A stretch of DNA of 8,616 nt, taken from the NCBI GenBank assembly GCA_002473085.1, contig DKTP01000078.1:1-8616 (forward strand), in the 5' to 3' direction. How positions within the stretch are numbered: position 1 is the stretch's first letter; each line of letters begins with the position of its first letter. Source of the DNA: Anaerolineales bacterium UBA7227. Its GTDB lineage: Bacteria; Chloroflexota; Anaerolineae; Anaerolineales; Villigracilaceae. The position numbers and the translations under genes are program-made. This document shows, piece by piece, positions 1 to 8,616 of the stretch. The notes beneath the pieces are model-generated. The model was not told the origin of the DNA, made no database searches, and worked only from the letters and a program-made list of their open reading frames with translations.

Positions 1-72
1 TCCCTGTTGTCTGTGAACCTTGTTAAGTTCGATTACATTACAGCAATGTATGTCTGAAACCAGATTATTCAT
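1..72 (-). CDS. FdtA/WxcM-like sugar 3,4-ketoisomerase, N-terminal end only (runs off left edge)
   Basis: Reading the minus strand from an ATG at 72-70 gives 24 codons that continue off the left edge. The peptide begins MNNLVSDIHC and then reads NVIELNKVHRQQG. That matches the usual start of FdtA/QdtA-type cupin enzymes, whose first strand has the form 'IELPKVxDxRGNL'. These enzymes isomerise dTDP-4-keto-6-deoxyglucose to its 3-keto form in the synthesis of 3-amino sugars for surface glycans. The ATG overlaps the TGA of the upstream gene (ATGA at 72-69), so the two are probably translationally coupled. No clear Shine-Dalgarno sequence precedes it. The overlap and the N-terminal match support the call; most of the protein, including the catalytic region, is outside the window. 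Confidence 0.6.
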   Translation of the reverse strand, partial: MNNLVSDIHCCNVIELNKVHRQQG

Positions 73-329
73 GCTTGAAGAATACTTTTGAATTCATCAA
101 AATTACGTATGTAATCTGCGTCTGAAAAGTCTGTTGATGCAATGATAAGCGCAAGAGAATTGGTGGAGAAGTTTTCCATCGTTCTCCATATCATTTTAGG
201 CACATACAAGCCATAGTAGGATCTGCATAAATGAAAGCGGAATTCACCGTTACCATTGTGGAGAGATACATCAAAACTTCCTGAAAGGGCTACAATGAGC
301 TCTTCAGTCTCCCTGAAGGCATGACCCAC
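69..329 (-). CDS. FdtA/WxcM-like dTDP-sugar 3,4-ketoisomerase, N-terminally truncated cupin
   Basis: The minus-strand frame ending at the TGA 71-69 encodes a cupin of the FdtA/QdtA/WxcM family. The matching part starts at GHAF (326-315) and runs to the stop: the ELIVALSGSFDVSL strand, then GLYVPKMIWR, then DYIRNFDEF near the C-terminus. The family acts on dTDP-4-keto-6-deoxyhexoses in the cytoplasm. About 40 N-terminal residues expected of the family are missing; upstream of about 329 the open frame continues to 431, but there it is only the antisense of a lipoprotein gene. I give 329 (a GTG) as the limit of plausible coding sequence, not as a native start. The family's HAH motif reads HAF here, so the second His is absent. 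The gene is AT-rich like the rest of 1-320. Probably non-functional as it stands, or an artefact of the join at 321-333. Confidence 0.75.
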   Translation of the reverse strand: MGHAFRETEELIVALSGSFDVSLHNGNGEFRFHLCRSYYGLYVPKMIWRTMENFSTNSLALIIASTDFSDADYIRNFDEFKSILQA

Positions 330-333
330 CCTG
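321..333. other. Breakpoint: abrupt join between an AT-rich sugar-gene region and a GC-rich lipoprotein region
   Basis: To the left, minus-strand FdtA-like homology holds up to GHA at 326-318 and then stops about 40 residues short of a start. To the right, plus-strand lipoprotein linker sequence (PTLPPTPTQIC) begins right after a TGA at 322-324, with no start codon or signal peptide. G+C is 38% over 1-300 by my count and about 65% in the sample 481-540. Two unrelated genes losing their 5' ends at the same point means a recombination junction or an assembly/chimera join. The exact base cannot be fixed because the Thr/Pro-coding linker has low complexity. Confidence 0.8.
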
Positions 334-1206
334 CCTCCCACCCCCACGCAGATCTGCGACGCGGCTGCATTTGTCACAGACGTCACCGTGCCAGACGGGA
401 CTGTCTTCGCGCCCAACACCGCGTTCGTCAAGACCTGGCGTTTGAAGAACGTCGGAACCTGCTCGTGGACTCCCTCCTATACGATCGTCTTCGATCACGG
501 CGATCAGATGAGCGGTCCCAGCGCGCAGGCGCTCACGAGCAACGTCAACCCCGGCCAGACGGTGGATCTTTCCGTCAACCTCGTCTCCCCGGCCGTCAAC
601 GGCTCGTATAAAGGCTATTGGAAACTCCGCAACCCCAGCGGTGTGACCTTCACGCAATTCTATGCCGACGTCAAGGTGGCTGTACTCAGCAGCGGCTTTG
701 ACCTGTACACGCGCGCCCCCGACGCGGCATGGATCGGCGGCGGCGGTGGCGGCGGCGGAACAATTCTGACCTTTGGCGGGCCAGATTCTGACCCTAACGG
801 GTTTGTCATGTATCGCAGCGGCTTTTTGCTGGAAGACGGCTCCTCCCCGTCCAAGATCCTCGAGACGCACCCTAAGTGGGTGGATGACGGCGTCATCTCG
901 GGCGAGTATCCCGCCTATACCATTGTGGCCGGCGAGCGTTTCCGCGCCAAGATCGGCTTCCTGGCGAAGGCCGACGGTACTTGCGGGGCGGGAAAAGTGA
1001 AATTCCAGCTCAACTATAAAGAGGGCGGCTCCCTTCATCCGCTGGGTACTTGGACCAAGAATTGCAATGGAAACCTGATGACGCTGGACGTTGACCTGAG
1101 CAGCCTGGCCGGGCATAGTATTCGATTGGTCCTGGCGGTATTGGCCGACGGCCCGGCATCTCAAGACTGGGCCGTGTGGGTGGCGCCACGCGTCGTGCTT
1201 CCGTAA
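325..1206 (+). CDS. 5'-truncated NBR1-Ig (four-tryptophan) domain protein with second C-terminal domain
   Basis: The frame is open from 325 (after a TGA at 322-324) to the TAA at 1204-1206. It begins inside a Thr/Pro linker, without signal peptide or lipobox. The first possible start is GTG at 388, which lies inside the Ig domain and would drop its first Cys, so this is best read as a gene whose 5' end was lost at the breakpoint. The NBR1-Ig domain spans roughly 355-690, with Cys (355), KTW (430-438), CSW (460-468) and the GYW strand near 616. A second domain follows from about 700, starting at DAAW, to the end (WVAPRVVLP). It resembles the C-terminal domain of the protein at 2348-3607 (paired motifs GEYPAYTIVAGERF / GVYPPIRVKDGDRF). 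A run of eight Gly interrupts it. The intact protein was probably a surface lipoprotein; its function is unknown. Confidence 0.8.
   Translation, partial: PTLPPTPTQICDAAAFVTDVTVPDGTVFAPNTAFVKTWRLKNVGTCSWTPSYTIVFDHGDQMSGPSAQALTSNVNPGQTVDLSVNLVSPAVNGSYKGYWKLRNPSGVTFTQFYADVKVAVLSSGFDLYTRAPDAAWIGGGGGGGGTILTFGGPDSDPNGFVMYRSGFLLEDGSSPSKILETHPKWVDDGVISGEYPAYTIVAGERFRAKIGFLAKADGTCGAGKVKFQLNYKEGGSLHPLGTWTKNCNGNLMTLDVDLSSLAGHSIRLVLAVLADGPASQDWAVWVAPRVVLP
736..759 (+). repeat. Poly-glycine codon run (eight GGN codons)
   Basis: Eight consecutive Gly codons (seven GGC/GGT, then GGA) follow Trp-Ile in the second domain of the truncated lipoprotein. The paralogue at 2348-3607 has a non-repetitive stretch with the motif LPCPG at the matching place. 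The GGC-rich run is the kind of sequence that grows by replication slippage. Confidence 0.7.
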
Positions 1207-1214
1207 TCTGCCCC

Positions 1215-1258
1215 AGGCGCCCGGCAAGACAGCCGGGCGCCTCCCTTAAACCTTTCTT
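1215..1258 (+). terminator. Hairpin, probable terminator of the truncated lipoprotein gene
   Basis: A perfect 11-bp stem (AGGCGCCCGGC at 1215-1225 with its complement at 1232-1242) closes a 6-nt loop, beginning 8 bases after the stop codon. The tail (CCCTTAAACCTTTCTT) is pyrimidine-rich but has no clean U run, so efficiency is uncertain. It separates this gene from the next promoter. Confidence 0.65.
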
Positions 1259-1266
1259 ATTTACGG

Positions 1267-1276
1267 GCGTTATAAT
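1267..1276 (+). promoter_or_regulatory. Putative promoter -10 element (GCGTTATAAT)
   Basis: A perfect TATAAT at 1271-1276 lies 42 bases before the ATG at 1319, just downstream of a terminator-like hairpin. The identical ten bases recur at 3648-3657 before another lipoprotein gene. I see no good -35 hexamer 16-18 bases upstream, so this rests on the -10 match, its position and its recurrence. Confidence 0.5.
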
Positions 1277-1318
1277 CCGGCTGGCATTTCCCTGTGGAAC
1301 CATGCCGAAAGGACAAGA

Positions 1319-2242
1319 ATGAAGCGAACCTTTCCCCTGTTTTCCATCCTGTTGATCGCCAGTCTCGCGCTCGGCGCGTGCGGCGGCGCGGACAATCAAT
1401 CGGCCATCGCCACCGCGGTCGCGTTGACGGTCCAGGCGCAGGCCGCGCCCACCCAGGTCCTCATCCGGCCGTCCGAGACGCCGACGAATCCCCCCGCGGC
1501 CCCCTCGGTCCCGCCCGCCGTCACGTCCACGTTCACGCCCGCGCCGGGTTCGTTTGGCGGCTGCATGTCTGCCAGCCTCGTTTCGGAAAATCCGCCCGAC
1601 AAGACCATCCTGAAGCCCGGCGAGAAATTTCTGAAGACGTGGCGCATCCAAAATACCAGTAATTGCGCCTGGAACACCAACTACAAACTCGTCTTTTGGA
1701 ACGGCGACCTGATGGGCGGCTCGTATAACTACAACTTTCCACAGATCCTTCCGGCCGGCCAAAGCGCGGACGTGAGCGTGTGGCTGGCCGCGCCCGAGAC
1801 GCCCGGCGCCTACAAGGGCGAATGGATGCTGCAAACGCCCGACGGAAAGAACTTTGGCGTCGGCGCGTACCAGTCTCCCTTCTGGGCCGAGATCGCGGTG
1901 GTCTCTGCCAGCGAGACGCCCGCCTACGGCATCACCGCCGTCTCCTACGAACTTGAACGTAACCCCAGAACCGGCTGCAACACCAACAACTGGTACACCG
2001 TGACCGCCCGCGTCTCGTTCAGCGGCCCGATGCCCGAGGTCGTTCTCCAATTCCAGCACAGCGACGGCTTCAAATCCAGCAAGTTCAAACTGGCGATCGA
2101 CGGGGCCGTCGCCAAAGACTTCAAGGACGAATGGAAGTTCCATATTGCGGACTCGCAGGGCCCCAAGTGGATCCGTCTCACGCAGGTGTTTCCCACCTAC
2201 ATTGAGTTCGACAAGGTAAACTTCACCTTTGAGTGCAAGTAA
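1319..2242 (+). CDS. NBR1-Ig (four-tryptophan) domain lipoprotein with a Cys-containing C-terminal domain
   Basis: This 307-aa protein starts at an ATG preceded by AAAGGA at 1308-1313. Residues 1-21 form a lipoprotein signal peptide with lipobox LGAC (Cys21), so export and lipid anchoring are expected. Residues 28-45 are Ala/Thr/Val/Gln-rich and about 43-75 form a Pro/Thr linker. The NBR1-Ig domain covers about 82-195, with Cys82, KTW (Trp108), CAW (Cys116, Trp118), Trp155, Trp169 and the NFGVG strand. Residues about 203-307 form a further domain unlike that of the neighbours, with many aromatic residues and Cys220 and Cys306. It appears to be a single-gene unit, with a putative promoter at 1267-1276 and a strong terminator after the stop. 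In eukaryotic NBR1 and ILRUN this fold is a protein-interaction module; its bacterial ligand is not known to me. Confidence 0.88.
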   Translation: MKRTFPLFSILLIASLALGACGGADNQSAIATAVALTVQAQAAPTQVLIRPSETPTNPPAAPSVPPAVTSTFTPAPGSFGGCMSASLVSENPPDKTILKPGEKFLKTWRIQNTSNCAWNTNYKLVFWNGDLMGGSYNYNFPQILPAGQSADVSVWLAAPETPGAYKGEWMLQTPDGKNFGVGAYQSPFWAEIAVVSASETPAYGITAVSYELERNPRTGCNTNNWYTVTARVSFSGPMPEVVLQFQHSDGFKSSKFKLAIDGAVAKDFKDEWKFHIADSQGPKWIRLTQVFPTYIEFDKVNFTFECK

Positions 2243-2246
2243 CCTG

Positions 2247-2280
2247 AACCGAGCCGAGGCCTTCCCCGGCTCGGTTTTTT
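2247..2280 (+). terminator. Rho-independent terminator
   Basis: A perfect 10-bp stem (AACCGAGCCG at 2247-2256, complement at 2267-2276) with a 10-nt loop ends in a T tract at 2275-2280. It starts 4 bases after the TAA of the preceding lipoprotein gene. This is a textbook intrinsic terminator and makes that gene a separate transcription unit from the next. Confidence 0.92.
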
Positions 2281-2347
2281 GTACGGAACTTTCCATAAGT
2301 CGGCTTCGTCTCAAACCGTGACAGATTTTTTGCATGGAGATTTAACG

Positions 2348-3607
2348 ATGAAGTTTCGCTATTTTGCCTTTTCGCTGGCTTTGACCGTGGTGGCGCTGGT
2401 TCAGGCTGCCTGCAACCTGCCCCGCGCGGAACGACCAGATCCCGCCTCCACATTGAACGCTTTATACACCCAGTCGGCTCAAACGCTGGAAGCCATGGCC
2501 TCCCAGTCTGCGCCCACGCTGGCAATTGCCTCGCCGACGCCGCTGTCCACCAGTACGCCTGCGGTTTCCTCGCCGCTCCCCCCGGTGTGGACCAGCACGC
2601 CGGTCACGCGCTGCGACTGGGCCGATTTCGTCTCGGATATGACCTATCCCGACGGGTCGGTCCTCGGGCGCAACGAACCCTTCACGAAGGTCTGGCGCAT
2701 CCGCAACATCGGAACCTGCTCGTGGACGGGCAACTACGCCCTCGTCTTCGTCAGCGGCGATGCGATGGACGCGCCGGTCGCGGTCGCGCTGACCGGCAAC
2801 GTCAATCCCGGCCAGACTGTGGACATCCCGGTCAACCTCGTCTCGCCCGGCAAAGACGGCCGTTACCGCGGCTACTTTAAACTGCGAAACGCCTCGGGCG
2901 TGCTGTTCGGCGTCGGACCGCAGGCCGCCACCTCCTTCTGGGTGGACATTGCGGTGACGGGAGAGAATTTCGTGGCCTACGATTTCGCCTCCAACTTCTG
3001 CGACGCGAGCTGGAATAACGGACAGATCTACCTGCCCTGCCCCGGCGTGGAAGGCGACGGCGCCGGTTACGCCATCGCGGCGGCCAACCCGAAGCTCGAA
3101 AACGGGAATCAGTCCGGGAGCGTGGGACTGTTGACGGTCCCGCGCGACGCGAACAACGGCTACATCCAGGGCGTCTATCCGCCCATCCGCGTCAAGGACG
3201 GCGACCGCTTCCGCTCCATCGTCAACTGCCGCTACAACTCCGCCGGCTGCAACGTGGTCTTCCGCCTCGATTACCAGGTCGGCGGCGGCGCGTTGAAAAA
3301 CCTCGGGCAGTGGAACGAAGCCTACGAGGGTCAGTGGTATTCGCTCGATATTGACCTGAGCCCGTTGAAGGGACAGGATGTCGTGTTCGTGTTCACTGTC
3401 CACGCCAACGGCGCGTTCTTCAAGGATTTCGCCATGTGGATCGGCCCGCGCCTGCTTCGCCCGGGCCCGCCGCCGCCCACCCTGACGCCAACCTCCACTC
3501 CCACCGTCACCCTCACGCCCAGCGCCACCGCCACGCTCACAGCGACGCCCACCGCCACAGAGACAGTCACCGAGACGCAAACGCCCACGCCTACTTCCAC
3601 GCCCTGA
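2348..3607 (+). CDS. NBR1-Ig (four-tryptophan) domain lipoprotein with second domain and Thr/Pro C-terminal tail
   Basis: I chose the ATG at 2348, preceded by GGAGA at 2336-2340, because it places a signal peptide at the N-terminus: MKFRYF, a hydrophobic stretch, then QAAC with Cys22. An upstream ATG at 2279 would bury that signal and lies in the preceding terminator. The product is 419 aa. Residues 36-58 (YTQSAQT motif) and a Pro/Ser/Thr linker precede the NBR1-Ig domain at about 89-204, with Cys89, KVW (Trp116), CSW (Cys124, Trp126), PGQTVD and FGVG. Residues about 210-371 form a second domain with Cys218, Cys231, Cys294 and Cys301, related to that of the truncated protein at 325-1206. The last 45 or so residues are a Thr/Pro/Ser tail ending at the stop, oddly with no domain after it. 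Probably a surface-anchored binding protein; ligand unknown. Confidence 0.88.
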   Translation: MKFRYFAFSLALTVVALVQAACNLPRAERPDPASTLNALYTQSAQTLEAMASQSAPTLAIASPTPLSTSTPAVSSPLPPVWTSTPVTRCDWADFVSDMTYPDGSVLGRNEPFTKVWRIRNIGTCSWTGNYALVFVSGDAMDAPVAVALTGNVNPGQTVDIPVNLVSPGKDGRYRGYFKLRNASGVLFGVGPQAATSFWVDIAVTGENFVAYDFASNFCDASWNNGQIYLPCPGVEGDGAGYAIAAANPKLENGNQSGSVGLLTVPRDANNGYIQGVYPPIRVKDGDRFRSIVNCRYNSAGCNVVFRLDYQVGGGALKNLGQWNEAYEGQWYSLDIDLSPLKGQDVVFVFTVHANGAFFKDFAMWIGPRLLRPGPPPPTLTPTSTPTVTLTPSATATLTATPTATETVTETQTPTPTSTP

Positions 3608-3621
3608 GATTGACGCCGCGC

Positions 3622-3643
3622 GGCCTGTCGGAAACGGCAGGCC
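3622..3643 (+). terminator. GAAA-tetraloop hairpin, possible terminator, directly before a promoter
   Basis: GGCCTGTCG (3622-3630) pairs with CGGCAGGCC (3635-3643) as a 9-bp stem with one G-T wobble around a GAAA loop. It starts 14 bases after the preceding stop. No T tract follows; instead a TATAAT begins 9 bases later. It may end the upstream transcript weakly or insulate the next promoter. Confidence 0.45.
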
Positions 3644-3647
3644 AACT

Positions 3648-3657
3648 GCGTTATAAT
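3648..3657 (+). promoter_or_regulatory. Putative promoter -10 element (GCGTTATAAT)
   Basis: A perfect TATAAT at 3652-3657 sits 27 bases before the ATG at 3685, in the same ten-base context as at 1267-1276. No convincing -35 is visible. If active it would drive the two following lipoprotein genes and, by read-through, queG and rdgB. Confidence 0.5.
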
Positions 3658-3684
3658 GATATTGCTGTTTGCTTCGGAGGAATC

Positions 3685-4368
3685 ATGCGAATTTTGACTG
3701 TACTTGGCGCTGCCATCCTGCTTCTGACGTTGACCGCCTGCGGTTCATCCCAGACCCCGGCTCCAACGGCGGATACTTCCCTGATCTACACCCAGGCCGC
3801 GCAGACGGTGGTGGTCCAGTTGACCCAGACCTCGGCCGTGCAGACCGCGCTCGCGCCCACCGACACTCCCCAGCCGACCTTTACTTCCGCTCCCACCGTA
3901 TCCGTTCCCACGCTGGACCTGCTGGGGCTGACCACCGCCACAAATCAACCCCTGCCTGCCCCGCCCGGAGTCTCCACGCCCACCCTCTTCCTGCCGCCGC
4001 TTCCCACGCCCACCGGTCCGCTCTGCAACGACTCGGTTTATATCCGCGACGTCGGCACAAAGGACGGGACCGTCCTCAAGCCCGGCCAGGCGTTTGCCAA
4101 GGGCTGGCTCATTCAAAATACCGGCGTCTGCAAGTGGACGGCCGGTTACCGCCTCGTCCGCGTGGGAGGCAATACCGATTTTGGCGGCGCCACTTTCGTC
4201 ATCCGCTATCCAAATCAGGAAGTGGCGCCCGGGGCGATTGCCGAGATCTCGCTCAATCTCGTGGCCCCCAAACAACCCGGCACGTACGAAGGCCGCTATC
4301 AAATGTATACCGACCTCAACGTCCCCTTCGGCACCGGCATGACCGTCGCGGTGGAAGTCCGAAAATAG
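3685..4368 (+). CDS. NBR1-Ig (four-tryptophan) domain lipoprotein
   Basis: The ATG at 3685 has GGAGG at 3676-3680 and opens a 227-aa product. Residues 1-19 are a signal peptide with lipobox LTAC (Cys19). The open frame reaches back to 3436, but that extension is only the shifted reading of the upstream Thr/Pro tail. After the lipid-modified Cys comes the segment IYTQAAQTVVVQLTQT (34-49), then a long Thr/Pro/Ser linker (to about 112). The single NBR1-Ig domain occupies about 114-227: Cys114, KGW (Trp141), CKW (Cys149, Trp151), an APGAIAEISL strand and a final FGTGMTVAVEV strand. The Trp usually found in the 'YxGxW' strand is Tyr here (GRYQMY, Tyr205). There is no C-terminal domain. The next lipoprotein gene follows after 24 bases, so they are likely co-transcribed. 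Function unknown. Confidence 0.88.
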   Translation: MRILTVLGAAILLLTLTACGSSQTPAPTADTSLIYTQAAQTVVVQLTQTSAVQTALAPTDTPQPTFTSAPTVSVPTLDLLGLTTATNQPLPAPPGVSTPTLFLPPLPTPTGPLCNDSVYIRDVGTKDGTVLKPGQAFAKGWLIQNTGVCKWTAGYRLVRVGGNTDFGGATFVIRYPNQEVAPGAIAEISLNLVAPKQPGTYEGRYQMYTDLNVPFGTGMTVAVEVRK

Positions 4369-4392
4369 CAGGTTCCAAGCAAGGAGATTCCC

Positions 4393-5016
4393 ATGAAAAC
4401 CAAACGTCACATCCCGGCCATCCTTTTGACGATATTGCTGGCCGCCTGCGCGCCCAAAGAGACTCCTATGCCCACGCCCGACATCGGCGCCATCCAGACC
4501 GCCGCGGCCGCGACCGTGATGGCGGAGGTCCTCGCCACGCAGAACGCCGCCGCTTCGCTCACCCCGCTCGCCACGCCCACCGTCGAAGCGACCGAGCCTC
4601 CCGCCGAGACGCCCACCGTCACCGTGACCGTCTCCGTCGTGCTCACGCCGGGCGCGATCGGCACATCGCTCGGATTGTGCGACGACGCGAATTTCAACCC
4701 GGCCACGGTGGATGTGACCATTCCCGACGGCGAAGTGGTAACGGCTGGTCAGGAATTCCTCAAAACCTGGAAGATCCGCAACACCGGCAGCTGCACCTGG
4801 GGCGCGGGCTATCGCGTCGTCTACGCCTACGGCGAAAGGATGAACGGCGCGCCGGCCGCCATCCCCGTCCCGGTCACGCCTAACCAGGAAGTGGACGTCT
4901 CCGTCCAATTCAAAGCGCCCGCCAAAGCCGGGCAATATTCCAGCACCTGGCGCATGGCGAACGCGCAGGGCAGCGCCTTCGGACAGTTCTTATACGTTCT
5001 GATCGTTGTCCGCTAG
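4393..5016 (+). CDS. NBR1-Ig (four-tryptophan) domain lipoprotein, minimal form
   Basis: The ATG at 4393 is preceded by AAGGAG at 4381-4386 with ideal spacing. The 207-aa product has a signal peptide with lipobox LAAC (Cys19), an Ala/Thr-rich segment (IQTAAAATVMAEVLATQ, 34-50) and a Thr/Pro/Val linker to about 90. One NBR1-Ig domain spans about 96-207: Cys96, KTW (Trp126), CTW (Cys134, Trp136), the STW strand (Trp186) and FGQF before the last strand. This is the smallest of the set, with nothing after the Ig domain. It lies 24 bases after the previous lipoprotein gene, and its TAG shares a base with the GTG of queG, so translation may be coupled. The family role in bacteria is not established; a ligand-binding or scaffolding head on a lipid anchor is my inference. 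Confidence 0.88.
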   Translation: MKTKRHIPAILLTILLAACAPKETPMPTPDIGAIQTAAAATVMAEVLATQNAAASLTPLATPTVEATEPPAETPTVTVTVSVVLTPGAIGTSLGLCDDANFNPATVDVTIPDGEVVTAGQEFLKTWKIRNTGSCTWGAGYRVVYAYGERMNGAPAAIPVPVTPNQEVDVSVQFKAPAKAGQYSSTWRMANAQGSAFGQFLYVLIVVR

Positions 5017-6089
5017 TGACCGACGCTCTCAAACAATCCATCCTCGAAGAAGCGCGCCGGCTGGGATTCGTCCTGGCCGGCGTGACGACTCCCGACCCCG
5101 CGCCTCACGTACAATTTTTCGAAAACTGGCTGGCGCGCGGCTATCACGGCGAGATGGCCTACCTCGCCACAGACCGCGCCCGGGCCCGCCGCGCCGACCC
5201 GCGCCTGATCCTCCCCGAATGTAAATCCATCCTCGCGCTGGGCGTTCCGTACAATGCCCCCCGCCACTTCCCCCGTTTTCTCGGAAAATGGGGGGAGACG
5301 GAGGGGGGCGTCGAGGGCCGCGTCGCCTCCTACGCCCTCGGCGAAGACTACCACCTCGTCCTCCCTCCGCGCCTCGAATCCCTCGTCGCCTTCATTGAGA
5401 CCCAGGTTGGACATCCCGTCCCCAACCGCTGCTACACCGACACCGGTCCCCTCCTCGAGCGCGACCTCGCCCAGCGCGCCGGCCTCGGCTGGATCGGCAA
5501 AAACGCCTGCCTCATCCACCCGCGCAAAGGCTCGTACTTCATCCTCGCAGAAATCCTGCTCGGCCTCGAACTCGAACCCGACGAACCCTTCGTCACCGAC
5601 CATTGCGGTTCCTGCACGCGCTGCATCGAGGCCTGTCCCACCGACGCCATCCTCCCCAACCGCTCGCTCGACGCCCGCCGCTGCATCTCCTATCTCACCA
5701 TCGAAAACAAAGGCGGCATCCCTGAAGACCTCCGCCCGTTGATCGGCGACCGGATCTTCGGATGCGACATCTGCCAGATGGTCTGCCCGTGGAATCGATT
5801 CGCCGCGCCCGAAGGCGACGCTTCATTCCAACCCGACGCGGGCGCGGCCGCAACCGACCTGATCGCCACCCTCGCGTTGACTCCCGAATCCTTCAACCGA
5901 CAGTTCAAGCGCAGTCCCATCCAACGGGCCAAGCGACGCGGACTCCTGCGCAACGTGGCTGTTGCGCTCGGCAACCTCGGCAACGAGACGTCTCTCCCTG
6001 CACTCGAAAATGCCGTCAACGATTCAGAACCTCTCGTCCGCGAACATGCAAAGTGGGCGATGGAGCAAATTACCAACACTTGCGCCTGA
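5016..6089 (+). CDS. queG: Epoxyqueuosine reductase QueG
   Basis: This 357-aa cytoplasmic enzyme reduces epoxyqueuosine to queuosine in tRNA, the last step of queuosine synthesis, using cobalamin and two [4Fe-4S] clusters. The cluster ligands are visible: CGSCTRCIEACP (Cys197, 200, 203, 207), a lone Cys223, and CDICQMVCPW (Cys250, 253, 257). The YTDTGPLLER motif (140-149) carries Asp142, corresponding to the family's proposed catalytic acid, followed by GWIGKN (158-163). Residues about 310-352 form a HEAT-like helical repeat that in known structures contacts tRNA. Length is in the usual range. The start is a GTG at 5016 whose G is the last base of the upstream TAG. No clear Shine-Dalgarno is visible, so coupling to the lipoprotein gene is likely. 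rdgB follows after 36 bases. Confidence 0.95.
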   Translation: MTDALKQSILEEARRLGFVLAGVTTPDPAPHVQFFENWLARGYHGEMAYLATDRARARRADPRLILPECKSILALGVPYNAPRHFPRFLGKWGETEGGVEGRVASYALGEDYHLVLPPRLESLVAFIETQVGHPVPNRCYTDTGPLLERDLAQRAGLGWIGKNACLIHPRKGSYFILAEILLGLELEPDEPFVTDHCGSCTRCIEACPTDAILPNRSLDARRCISYLTIENKGGIPEDLRPLIGDRIFGCDICQMVCPWNRFAAPEGDASFQPDAGAAATDLIATLALTPESFNRQFKRSPIQRAKRRGLLRNVAVALGNLGNETSLPALENAVNDSEPLVREHAKWAMEQITNTCA

Positions 6090-6097
6090 TGCAAGTG
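6077..6097 (+). other. Small hairpin spanning the queG stop codon
   Basis: CACTTGC (6077-6083) pairs with GCAAGTG (6091-6097) around a 7-nt loop that contains the queG TGA. No T tract follows, so it is not an intrinsic terminator. It may shape the queG-rdgB junction or be chance. Confidence 0.3.
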
Positions 6098-6125
6098 CAG
6101 GTGTCGCTAATTCCCACTTACCAAT

Positions 6126-6725
6126 ATGAAACTTCTCCTTGCCACCAACAACAAAGGCAAACTGCGCGAACTGCAAGCCATCCTCGCAGACCTGCCTCTT
6201 GAAATCCTCGCTCCCGCCGACATCGGGTTGACTCTCGAAGTGGACGAAGACGGTCTCACCTACGCCGAGAACGCGGCGAAGAAAGCCGTCGCTTTTCAGC
6301 GCGCCAGCGGACTCGTCTGTCTCGCCGACGACTCCGGCCTCGAGGTGGACGCCTTGGGCGGCGCGCCGGGACTTCGCTCCGCCAGGTATTCGTCCAAGCC
6401 GGGCGCCACCGACCGCGACCGCAGGATGACCCTTCTGCAAAACCTCGCCGACAAACCGCGTCCGTGGACGGCGCGCTTCCGGGCGACGATGGCCGTCGCA
6501 GGTCCGGATGGAAGCGTCGAAATTGCCGAGGGAATCTGCGAGGGCGAGATCAGCCCCGAGGAGCGCGGCTCCGGCGGGTTCGGGTACGACCCGGTCTTCT
6601 TCATCCCCGAATTCGGCCGGACGATGGCGGAACTGCCAGAGGAGACGAAGAACCGTCTCAGTCACCGGGCGCGGGCGGCGCAGGCCGCGCGTCCGATATT
6701 GGCGCGTCTCCTGCGAGACGGTTAA
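6126..6725 (+). CDS. rdgB: XTP/dITP diphosphatase (non-canonical purine NTP pyrophosphatase, RdgB/HAM1)
   Basis: The 199-aa product hydrolyses ITP, dITP and XTP to monophosphates plus pyrophosphate, keeping deaminated purines out of nucleic acids. The family signatures occur in order: ATNNKGKLREL (6-16) for the triphosphate, ADDSGLEVDALGGAPG (67-82) with the metal-binding and catalytic acidic pair Asp68-Asp69, SARYS (85-89), GFGYDPVFFIP (151-161) and SHRARA (179-184) for base recognition. Length matches the family. The ATG at 6126 gives the normal N-terminus, with no obvious Shine-Dalgarno. It lies 36 bases after queG and is probably in the same transcript. It ends with a TAA at 6723-6725, right before the hairpin array. 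Confidence 0.95.
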   Translation: MKLLLATNNKGKLRELQAILADLPLEILAPADIGLTLEVDEDGLTYAENAAKKAVAFQRASGLVCLADDSGLEVDALGGAPGLRSARYSSKPGATDRDRRMTLLQNLADKPRPWTARFRATMAVAGPDGSVEIAEGICEGEISPEERGSGGFGYDPVFFIPEFGRTMAELPEETKNRLSHRARAAQAARPILARLLRDG

Positions 6726-6728
6726 AAT
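6699..6728 (+). promoter_or_regulatory. Weak candidate promoter overlapping the rdgB stop
   Basis: TTGGCG (6699-6704) and TAAAAT (6723-6728) are 18 bases apart, upstream of the hairpin array and the lyase gene. Neither box is consensus, and a small 6-bp hairpin (6705-6720) lies in the spacer. I include it only because some start for the downstream unit is expected here. Confidence 0.22.
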
Positions 6729-6747
6729 GGCCTTCACAAAGCGCTGA

Positions 6748-6880
6748 AATCCGGAAGTTCGGCTTCTGGACGTGAAAAGCGGGAATCCAGAAGCTCTGCT
6801 TCTGGACATGAAAAAACGGAATCCAGAAGCTCTGCTTCTGGACATGAAAAAACAGAATTCAGAAGCTCTGCTTCTGAATT
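6748..6880 (+). repeat. Tandem array of 36-bp units, each forming a hairpin (3.7 copies)
   Basis: Units begin at 6748, 6784, 6820 and 6856; the last is cut short at 6880. Each contains a palindrome with a 3-nt loop, at 6750-6770, 6786-6806, 6822-6842 and 6856-6880. Copies 2 and 3 have a perfect 9-bp stem (TCCAGAAGC / GCTTCTGGA, loop TCT). Copy 1 differs at two stem sites, both giving G-U wobbles in a plus-strand RNA. Copy 4 has a C-G pair changed to T-A on both sides and an extended 11-bp stem. The gaps are A-rich (ACATGAAAAAACGGA). The array fills the space between rdgB and the lyase gene. The 36-nt period keeps one frame open, giving a repeated peptide, but the palindromes explain the pattern better than coding does. 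Confidence 0.9.
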
Positions 6881-6882
6881 GC

Positions 6883-6901
6883 CCGCAAGTAGAACTTGCG
6901 G
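6883..6901 (+). repeat. Fifth hairpin of different sequence, just after the tandem array
   Basis: CCGCAAGT (6883-6890) pairs perfectly with ACTTGCGG (6894-6901) around AGA. It has the same stem and 3-nt loop geometry as the array, an unrelated sequence, and starts 2 bases after the last array hairpin. It lies 28 bases before the lyase ATG, so in a transcript from upstream it would be part of the leader. Confidence 0.7.
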
Positions 6902-6929
6902 ATTCCATTTATTTTCAAGTCAGGACACT

Positions 6930-7799
6930 ATGCACTCTCGACGCGCTCTCCTCTACATGCCCGGCGACGACTGGAAGAAGATTGTCAAAGCGACCACGCT
7001 CGGCGTGGACTGTATCTGCATGGACATGGAAGACGGCGTGGCCGTCAGCCGCAAAGCGGAAGCGCGGGTGACCATCGCCAAAGCCCTGCGCGAACTGGAC
7101 TTCGGCGCCAGCGAGAAACTGGCGCGCGTCAATTCCATCGGTTCGGGCTGGGAGCGGGACGACATTGACGCCGTCCTGCCGTTCCGCCCCGACGGGATCG
7201 TGATCCCCAAAGTGGAGTCGCGCGAGCAGGTCGAGTGGGGAAGCAGGCTCATCGAAGCCGCGGAATTGAAGTATGGCTGGACGCTTAATTCGATTCGGAT
7301 GCTGGTCGGCGTGGAGACCGCGCTGGGGATTCTGAATCTCAAAGAGATCGCCGCGCATCCGCGTCTCGATGGGATCATCTTCGGGGGCGAGGACTACGCC
7401 GCCTCGGTCGGCGCGCGGCGGACGCGCGAGGCGGTCGAATTGCTGTACGCGCGCCAGGCGGTCGTCGCGGCGTGCGCGGCCTTCGGTCTGCAGGCGATTG
7501 ACATCGTCTATATCGACTTCAAAGACGCGGAGGGACTGCGCCTCGAAGCCGAACAGGGAGCCGGGTTCGGCTTTAGCGGGAAACAGATCATCCACCCGAA
7601 CCAGGTCGGGGTCGCGCAGGAGGCGTTCACCCCGTCGGACGAGGCGCTCGAAGAAGCGCGTCGGATCGTCGAGACGTTCGAAGCCAGTCAAAAGGAAGGC
7701 AAGGGCGCGTACGCGCTGGACGGGAAGATGATAGACATGCCGCTCCTCAAAAACGCGCAGAAGGTGTTGGCGCGGGCGCGCGCGGCAGGGAAAATCTAG
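6930..7799 (+). CDS. Citramalyl-CoA lyase-like protein of the CitE / HpcH-HpaI family (CLYBL type)
   Basis: This 289-aa protein is a TIM-barrel CitE-family acyl-CoA lyase. Visible motifs are the start RRALLYMPGDDWKKI, MDMEDGVA (31-38), ARVNS with Arg66, IPKVES (92-97), GVETALGILN with Glu129, FGGEDYAASVGA with the acidic pair Glu154-Asp155 (Mg site), and GFSGKQIIHPNQV (214-226). The late segments FGLQAIDIVYIDF (185-197) and KMIDMPLLKNAQ (266-277) closely recall human CLYBL, the mitochondrial citramalyl-CoA lyase; Asp269 sits where CLYBL has its essential Asp320, judged from memory. The expected reaction is citramalyl-CoA to acetyl-CoA plus pyruvate, with malyl- or methylmalyl-CoA as alternatives. 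I chose the ATG at 6930 (AGGA at 6922-6925) because the open frame upstream lies in hairpins. It heads a three-gene run. Confidence 0.85.
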   Translation: MHSRRALLYMPGDDWKKIVKATTLGVDCICMDMEDGVAVSRKAEARVTIAKALRELDFGASEKLARVNSIGSGWERDDIDAVLPFRPDGIVIPKVESREQVEWGSRLIEAAELKYGWTLNSIRMLVGVETALGILNLKEIAAHPRLDGIIFGGEDYAASVGARRTREAVELLYARQAVVAACAAFGLQAIDIVYIDFKDAEGLRLEAEQGAGFGFSGKQIIHPNQVGVAQEAFTPSDEALEEARRIVETFEASQKEGKGAYALDGKMIDMPLLKNAQKVLARARAAGKI

Positions 7800-7828
7800 G
7801 CAATCGAATCTGCACTACGGAGGATGAA

Positions 7829-8161
7829 ATGGCGTTTTCTAAAAAGGCTGTGATGAACGTGAACGAGGGCGAGGAGATCGTCGGCGGATGGGCTACCGCG
7901 CCTATCCCCGGCACGGGAGCGTACAAACTGCTCGCCAAGAAACGCAAGGACGGCGTCATCGAGTGGGCGCATTTCATCCAGCGGGCTTCGGGCGTGAAGA
8001 AAGTCATTTTTCGCGGCGAAGCGGTCTCGCGCCAGCAATTGGACGTGGTGATCGAAATCGCCAACGAGAATTTGAAACGGCTGTTCGGCGTCTCCTTGCA
8101 GGCTGTGGAATACGACATGTACACCCTCGATGGGAAAAAGATATCCGGCGCGAAGCATTGA
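7829..8161 (+). CDS. Conserved-looking small protein of unknown function (110 aa)
   Basis: The ATG at 7829 has a strong GGAGG at 7819-7823. The product is 110 aa, soluble-looking, Lys-rich, with no signal peptide, membrane segment or Cys. The N-terminal half contains GGWATAPIPGTGAYKLLAKK (about 19-38) and then EWAHFIQRASGVKKVIFRG, suggesting beta strands. The second half, from SRQQLDVVIEIANENLKRLFG (about 67-87), looks like an amphipathic helix, followed by YDMYTLDGKK. I do not recognise the family. It starts 29 bases after the lyase stop and ends 1 base before the next ATG, so the three genes are probably one operon. That it is a real gene is supported by the ribosome site, the tight spacing and coherent composition. 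Confidence 0.78.
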   Translation: MAFSKKAVMNVNEGEEIVGGWATAPIPGTGAYKLLAKKRKDGVIEWAHFIQRASGVKKVIFRGEAVSRQQLDVVIEIANENLKRLFGVSLQAVEYDMYTLDGKKISGAKH

Positions 8162-8162
8162 T

Positions 8163-8616
8163 ATGACCGGCATCCAGGTTCTCCCCGTCCGCAGCGGGCG
8201 CGAAAAACGCGTCTTCCTGACTTTCCCGTGGCGCGTCTACAAAAACGACCCGCTCTGGATTCCGCCCCTGCTCTCCGACCGCGTCAAGGCAACCGATCCG
8301 GCGCGCGGGATTTTCTTCAAGGACGGCATGGCCGAATTCTTCATCGCCTGGAAGGACGGCCGCCCCGCCGGGACTCTCTGCCTCGCCGAGGAGAAGGGAC
8401 GGACACGGCACAAGGGTTACGCGGAGGGCATGTATGGATTTGTCGAATGTATCGAAGACTACGACGCGTTCGCGGCCATGTTCGCTCACGCGGAACGTTG
8501 GGCCGCGGCGCGCGGCATGACCGCGCTCTACGGTCCCTACAATCTCGACCGCGAGGACAGCCGCGGCATTCTCGTCGAGGGGCGGGACCGTCCTGCCGCG
8601 ATCTACCTCGCGCATC
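8163..8616 (+). CDS. GNAT-like acetyltransferase-related protein, N-terminal part (runs off right edge)
   Basis: From the ATG at 8163, one base after the previous stop, 151 codons stay open to the right edge. The protein matches the pattern of a large bacterial family usually annotated as N-acetyltransferase or 'GNAT family' of about 370-400 aa. It shows FPWRVYKNDPLWIPPL (21-36), an AEFFIAWKDGRPAGTL strand pair (57-72), MYGFVE (90-95), AARGMTALYGPYN (115-127) and GILVEGRDRP (135-144). Members resemble acyl-CoA transferases by fold, but the substrate is generally unknown. The 1-nt gap and lack of a clear Shine-Dalgarno suggest translational coupling with the 110-aa gene. About half or more of the protein is outside the window. 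Confidence 0.8.
   Translation, partial: MTGIQVLPVRSGREKRVFLTFPWRVYKNDPLWIPPLLSDRVKATDPARGIFFKDGMAEFFIAWKDGRPAGTLCLAEEKGRTRHKGYAEGMYGFVECIEDYDAFAAMFAHAERWAAARGMTALYGPYNLDREDSRGILVEGRDRPAAIYLAH

Follow-up and report, generated by a model that had tools for sequence, protein, structure and literature searches.

A breakpoint that truncates two genes near a contig start of an Anaerolineales genome: a probable chimeric contig end

Chimeric sequence contamination is known to occur in metagenome-assembled genomes, as set out in section 2.7 of one paper (PMC10978663) and in passages of another (PMC7111523). The latter passages mention chimeras of two organisms, which are rare, and non-unique sequence that is kept at the ends of scaffolds (PMC7111523). 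Another error described there, for IDBA-UD and CLC assemblies, is the insertion of Ns despite overlapping flanks (PMC7111523).

The DNA studied here, called the window, is the stretch of 8,616 nucleotides formed by bases 1-8616 of contig C151 (DKTP01000078.1), itself 24,488 bases long. It comes from the assembly GCA_002473085.1 (G000; 182 contigs, 3.02 Mb, 96.8% complete), to which contigs C155, C2, C6 and C90, used below, also belong. Seven other genomes of the genus served for comparison, among them G007, of the same species and in four contigs, and G003, another member of the genus. A preliminary description of the window had reported a sharp breakpoint cutting two genes, and proposed as causes either an inversion or deletion that brought a surface-sugar island next to a lipoprotein cluster, or a chimeric contig. 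Base 1 of the window coincides with base 1 of C151, so the breakpoint lies only 324 bases from the contig end. The available data confirm the breakpoint in the sequence and are best explained by a chimeric contig end. The features concerned are collected in Table 1.

Table 1. Features at the breakpoint and at the right end of the window
Feature	Positions	Strand	Basis
Second FdtA-like ORF, first 24 codons (MNNLVSDIHCCNVIELNKVHRQQG)	1..72	-	Translation; cut by the contig end
FdtA-type sugar isomerase gene (predicted), C-terminal 85 codons and stop, N-terminal part absent	69..326	-	PF05523
ORF spanning the join, false, out of the lipoprotein frame	321..611	+	ORF list against the true frame
Probable chimeric join, bases CC fitting both sides (minimal microhomology)	325..326		Comparison of window, G007 and C155; FdtA end at 326
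N_BRCA1_IG lipoprotein gene, 3' part	325..1206	+	PF16158, 92.7 bits
93 bases identical to C155 1-93 (reverse complement)	325..417	+	Own-genome search, G007 comparison
Lipoprotein antisense, read as the false N-terminus of ORF 69-431	327..431	-	ORF list, alignment of relatives
Ten bases repeated beyond a 69-N scaffold gap (C151 8617-8685)	8607..8616	+	G007 comparison

A fragment of an FdtA-type gene on the left side

The left side of the window matches the family PF05523 on the minus strand, well above the curated cut-off (92.8 bits against 23), over the 84 C-terminal residues of the predicted protein. This family comprises sugar 3,4-ketoisomerases of the FdtA/WxcM type. In the window the domain is incomplete: the match covers positions 46-129 of the 131 of the profile and positions 1-45 are absent. 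Since the N-terminal third is lacking, the window holds no complete enzyme. The ATG of the second FdtA-like ORF, which starts at 72, overlaps the stop codon of the first FdtA gene.

A protein search with the FdtA piece, in which scoring was limited to the 7,999 candidates with the most words in common and 120 were listed, placed P0001 and P0002 first (94% and 96% identity across the piece). When the piece was aligned with six full-length relatives chosen from the 120, clear homology was found to end at a Gly-His pair whose codons reach base 326. Upstream of the shared part, P0001 and P0002 read ...YDVPGGESRGGHAFRE whereas the window reads ...GVGGRVGHAFRE; thus, the sequences are not clearly alike beyond the Gly encoded at 324-326. 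At the DNA level, bases 1-700 of the window were compared as a free-ended query with 23 loci, giving 18 rows and 14 distinct matched places. The matches end at 323-326 in 8 of these 14 places, earlier (203-306) in four, and at 342-343 in the other two. With tblastn, the match of P0002 extends to 344, past the join.

The gene order on this side also has counterparts. Two FdtA-like copies stand in tandem in at least 15 of the 22 loci listed, and a start similar to that of the second ORF lies directly behind FdtA in 5 of 24 loci (E <=0.002). Bases 1-326 thus represent part of an ordinary gene pair of the Bacteroidota type.

The lipoprotein gene and its native neighbour

To the right of the breakpoint lies the 3' part of an N_BRCA1_IG lipoprotein gene, whose Ig-like domain (PF16158) is in the window. 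Its front is on another contig of the same assembly. A search of the own genome with window bases 200-700 returned the window itself, contig C155 and four weaker matches (70-75% identity). Past the 93 bases that it shares with the window, C155 keeps the reading frame of the lipoprotein, coding MRRSNRLSLALAVLVVAALACNLPQ..., and holds the first 84 codons of the gene, including the signal peptide and its Cys. The N-terminus with its ALAC motif is present on C155 and in G007 (the signal peptide was read by eye); in both, the true start lies 252 bases before the position that corresponds to base 325. The gene is intact in G007, where it codes for 377 residues. Before the lipoprotein start, C155 carries a BPD_transp_2 permease gene and, counting what lies farther upstream, two such permeases in all, an ABC ATPase and two proteins of the Bmp family (PnrA-like). 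In G003, the same permease (91% identity over the 144 residues in view) is found upstream of a relative of the lipoprotein, at a distance of about 0.8 kb.

The same-species genome joins the two contigs. G007 aligns without gaps with window bases 325-8616 (98.84% over 8,292 bases) and with C155 1-13002 (99.63% over 13,002 bases), and in G007 the two alignments adjoin without a gap, with an overlap of exactly the 93 shared bases. The native continuation of the right side is therefore found elsewhere in the same assembly, and the junction seen in the window is absent from relatives: the tail has no significant match in any of the seven other genomes of the genus, and G007 has the native join. Because the missing front of the lipoprotein gene is on C155, and is joined to the rest unbroken in G007, it is likely that bases 1-324 were wrongly joined in the course of sequencing or assembly. 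The technical cause offered in the preliminary description, a chimeric contig, is supported by these two observations. A close relative with the same junction had been named there as evidence against an artefact; the only relative of the same species has instead an intact gene.

A rearrangement fixed in the strain, by which an inversion, a deletion or a transfer would have brought a surface-sugar island next to the lipoprotein cluster, has the contig's own sequence as the one point in its favour. It is opposed by the presence of the native neighbour C155 in the same assembly and by the native order kept in G007. Moreover, only 324 bases of the supposed island are attached, because the contig starts there, and they have no match on any other contig of this genome. 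C155 largely refutes such a fixed rearrangement, which we regard as extremely improbable.

One may ask whether the 93 shared bases correspond to a constant overlap (k) of the assembler. A comparison of 66 contig ends, which covered 23 contigs at either end and 20 others at the start, yielded no further true dovetail of at least 12 bases; the dovetails reported came only from ends that read N. The other end of C155 overlaps C2 by 20 bases. As no such overlap recurs among these ends, and C155 and C2 share 20 bases, a k of 93 is not established, and the idea was set aside.

The truncated gene is the first of five lipoprotein-like genes that stand in a row in window 325-5016. N_BRCA1_IG (PF16158) is present in four of the five, the fifth (3684-4368) having no Pfam match. 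Contigs C6 and C90, as well as the seven other genomes of the genus, hold DNA relatives of this row.

The join and the origin of the tail

Homology to FdtA reaches base 326, and native lipoprotein sequence begins at base 325. The only bases common to both sides are therefore 325-326, and the two truncations meet within about 2 bases. The preliminary description, in which both genes lost their 5' ends within about 12 bases, was thus right about a sharp breakpoint, which turns out to be even tighter than proposed. No direct or inverted repeat of at least 12 bases was found in window 280-460. On C155, short tandem repeats of 12 and 21 bases straddle the position of the join, in the linker that precedes the Ig domain. 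The gene calls around the breakpoint can be sorted accordingly. ORFs 69-431 (minus strand) and 321-611 (plus strand) span the join and neither is a natural protein, as had been stated for calls crossing 321-431. ORF 388-1206 (plus strand) consists of natural sequence, with an internal GTG taken as its start.

Repeats of another kind are seen away from the breakpoint. A palindromic unit (for example CCAGAAGCTCTGCTTCTGG) occurs three to four times, head to tail, in window 6750-6900, between genes that are presumably rdgB-like and citE-like, and the stretch is also present in G007. A similar palindrome of G007 (CCGCAAGTTCTACTTGCGG) has a match on contig C2. An intergenic sequence at L046 14100-14325 (G007) and on contig C2 (G000) matches in parts at least 39 further places in the genome, with 74-100% identity; from these matches, it is an apparent dispersed repeat family.

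The two sides of the join differ in their nearest relatives, which are Bacteroidota for the tail and the same-species genome, at 98.8%, for the remainder. Among 24 related loci in genome contigs, the 21 best belong to Bacteroidota (according to the record titles or, for some, to the genus names), and the last three to Actinomycetota, Opitutae and Lautropia. Four of the 120 proteins listed for the FdtA piece carry an organism name, and all four are from Bacteroidales. Bases 1-330 have a single place in their own genome, two further rows appearing only at E 5.6, and no significant match in the seven other genomes of the genus (best E 0.17, over 20 bases). These results argue against the biological cause proposed in the preliminary description: the tail is single in its genome, has no significant match in the other genomes of the genus and has its near relatives in Bacteroidota.

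Other origins of the tail were considered. PF05523 is present in three of the eight genomes of the genus, as the window fragment and as two genes that cover nearly the whole profile. The tail could thus have been a native FdtA gene of the genus; this was rejected, the two genus genes (in two of the seven other genomes) being 46% and 31% identical to the fragment, against 94-96% for the best database proteins. A viral and a plasmid origin were likewise rejected, as the tail has no relative among the viral contigs and no match among the plasmids searched. In a sample of 393 genomes of the order of genome G013, 37 gave DNA matches to the tail at E <=0.001 (two candidates being scored per genome); the source contig was not found among these 393 genomes, the best broad DNA match being 70% identical.

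Base composition also changes at the join. The G+C content is 38% across window 1-300 and 65% across 481-540 (39 of 60 bases), the same values as in the preliminary description. As proof of a foreign tail, low G+C was discarded as weak, since other contig ends, and the interior of a contig, are equally low. In a survey of 67 contig ends, from which four with fewer than 100 readable bases were dropped to leave 63, two of the 62 ends other than that of the window were as low as it, and the interior of contig C6 has a 300-base stretch that goes down to 39%. Each of the two other low ends is part of a low-G+C stretch at least about 2 kb long, and one of these stretches continues into DNA shared with G007. 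The low-G+C stretch at the end of C144 had no match in G007, in a search run without a positive control. By eye, sequences resembling a helicase and a HerA-type ATPase were noted in the low-G+C stretches at the end of C144 (L123) and at the start of C159 (L124); they may be defence genes.

It has also to be considered that the structure is real in a minority of the cells. Some cells would then carry sugar genes derived from Bacteroidales within the lipoprotein gene, with C151 as the variant branch and C155 as the common one. The shape of the fork, in which two left paths meet at base 325 and one of them ends after 93 shared bases, fits such a variant equally well, and low-G+C stretches of the size given above, one of them leading into sequence of G007, do occur in this genome. 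C155 is 99.6% identical to G007, and C151, in its three main pieces, 96.7-98.8%; from this difference, strains may be mixed. Against a variant, the cut falls within the coding frame of each gene at one place, with 2 common bases, no repeat of the length searched for lies around the join, and the tail lacks any other place in the genome and any significant match in the other genomes of the genus, yet shows 94-96% protein identity to sequences of the Bacteroidales type. We therefore consider a minor variant very unlikely. Its more specific form, a subpopulation in which surface-sugar genes of Bacteroidales have truly passed between phyla and, by their insertion, inactivate a surface lipoprotein, so that the assembly forks into the native C155 and the rearranged C151, seems less probable still.

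Overall, bases 1-324 are very probably a foreign tail, likely from Bacteroidales and likely attached by mistake to the end of C151, C155 overlapping bases 325-417 and carrying the missing lipoprotein start. Against this reading stand the FdtA matches that run past the join, a source contig not found among the 393 genomes, a 93-base overlap not shown to be k, the equally low G+C of other contig ends, and the unequal identity of C155 and C151 to G007. As for how a chimeric contig end could arise here, it can be proposed that contig building stopped in the G+C-rich short tandem repeats of the proline-rich linker of the lipoprotein. The tail might then have been added through a chimeric library fragment or through an erroneous local extension of the contig end. 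A k-mer collision in the assembly graph is no explanation, because only CC is shared and such an assembler depends on a common word of many bases.

With this reading, ORFs 69-431 and 321-611 drop out as false proteins, together with one truncated gene call, and it advises caution against inferring a transferred surface-sugar island in this genome. It also offers a cheap check for similar breakpoints, which is to look in the same assembly for a contig that overlaps exactly and holds the missing part of the gene, and then for the native join in a genome of the same species.

Comparison with described assembly errors

A second scar of assembly lies at the other end of the window. The 69 Ns that follow it on C151 are flanked on either side by the same ten bases, and G007 has no gap at this position, the flanks overlapping by these 10 bases. 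Since the flanks truly overlap in G007, the gap is false, and it interrupts a gene that begins near 8130-8163. At four of the five N gaps within the examined stretches, the flanks were found to repeat 6-18 bases; misplaced scaffold gaps thus recur in this assembly. The 69-N gap resembles the insertion of Ns despite overlap in the passages of PMC7111523 cited above, with the same 10 bases on either side and a gapless counterpart in G007. It is a scar separate from the join at 325 and not its cause.

The join itself resembles chimeric contamination, as presented in section 2.7 of PMC10978663 and in the relevant passages of PMC7111523. In both cases, a contig holds stretches resembling two organisms, and base composition and closest relatives shift at the join. 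Compared with what these parts of the two papers describe, the present case is distinguished by a very short tail (324 bases), by its position at a contig end, and by a native continuation that is preserved on another contig.
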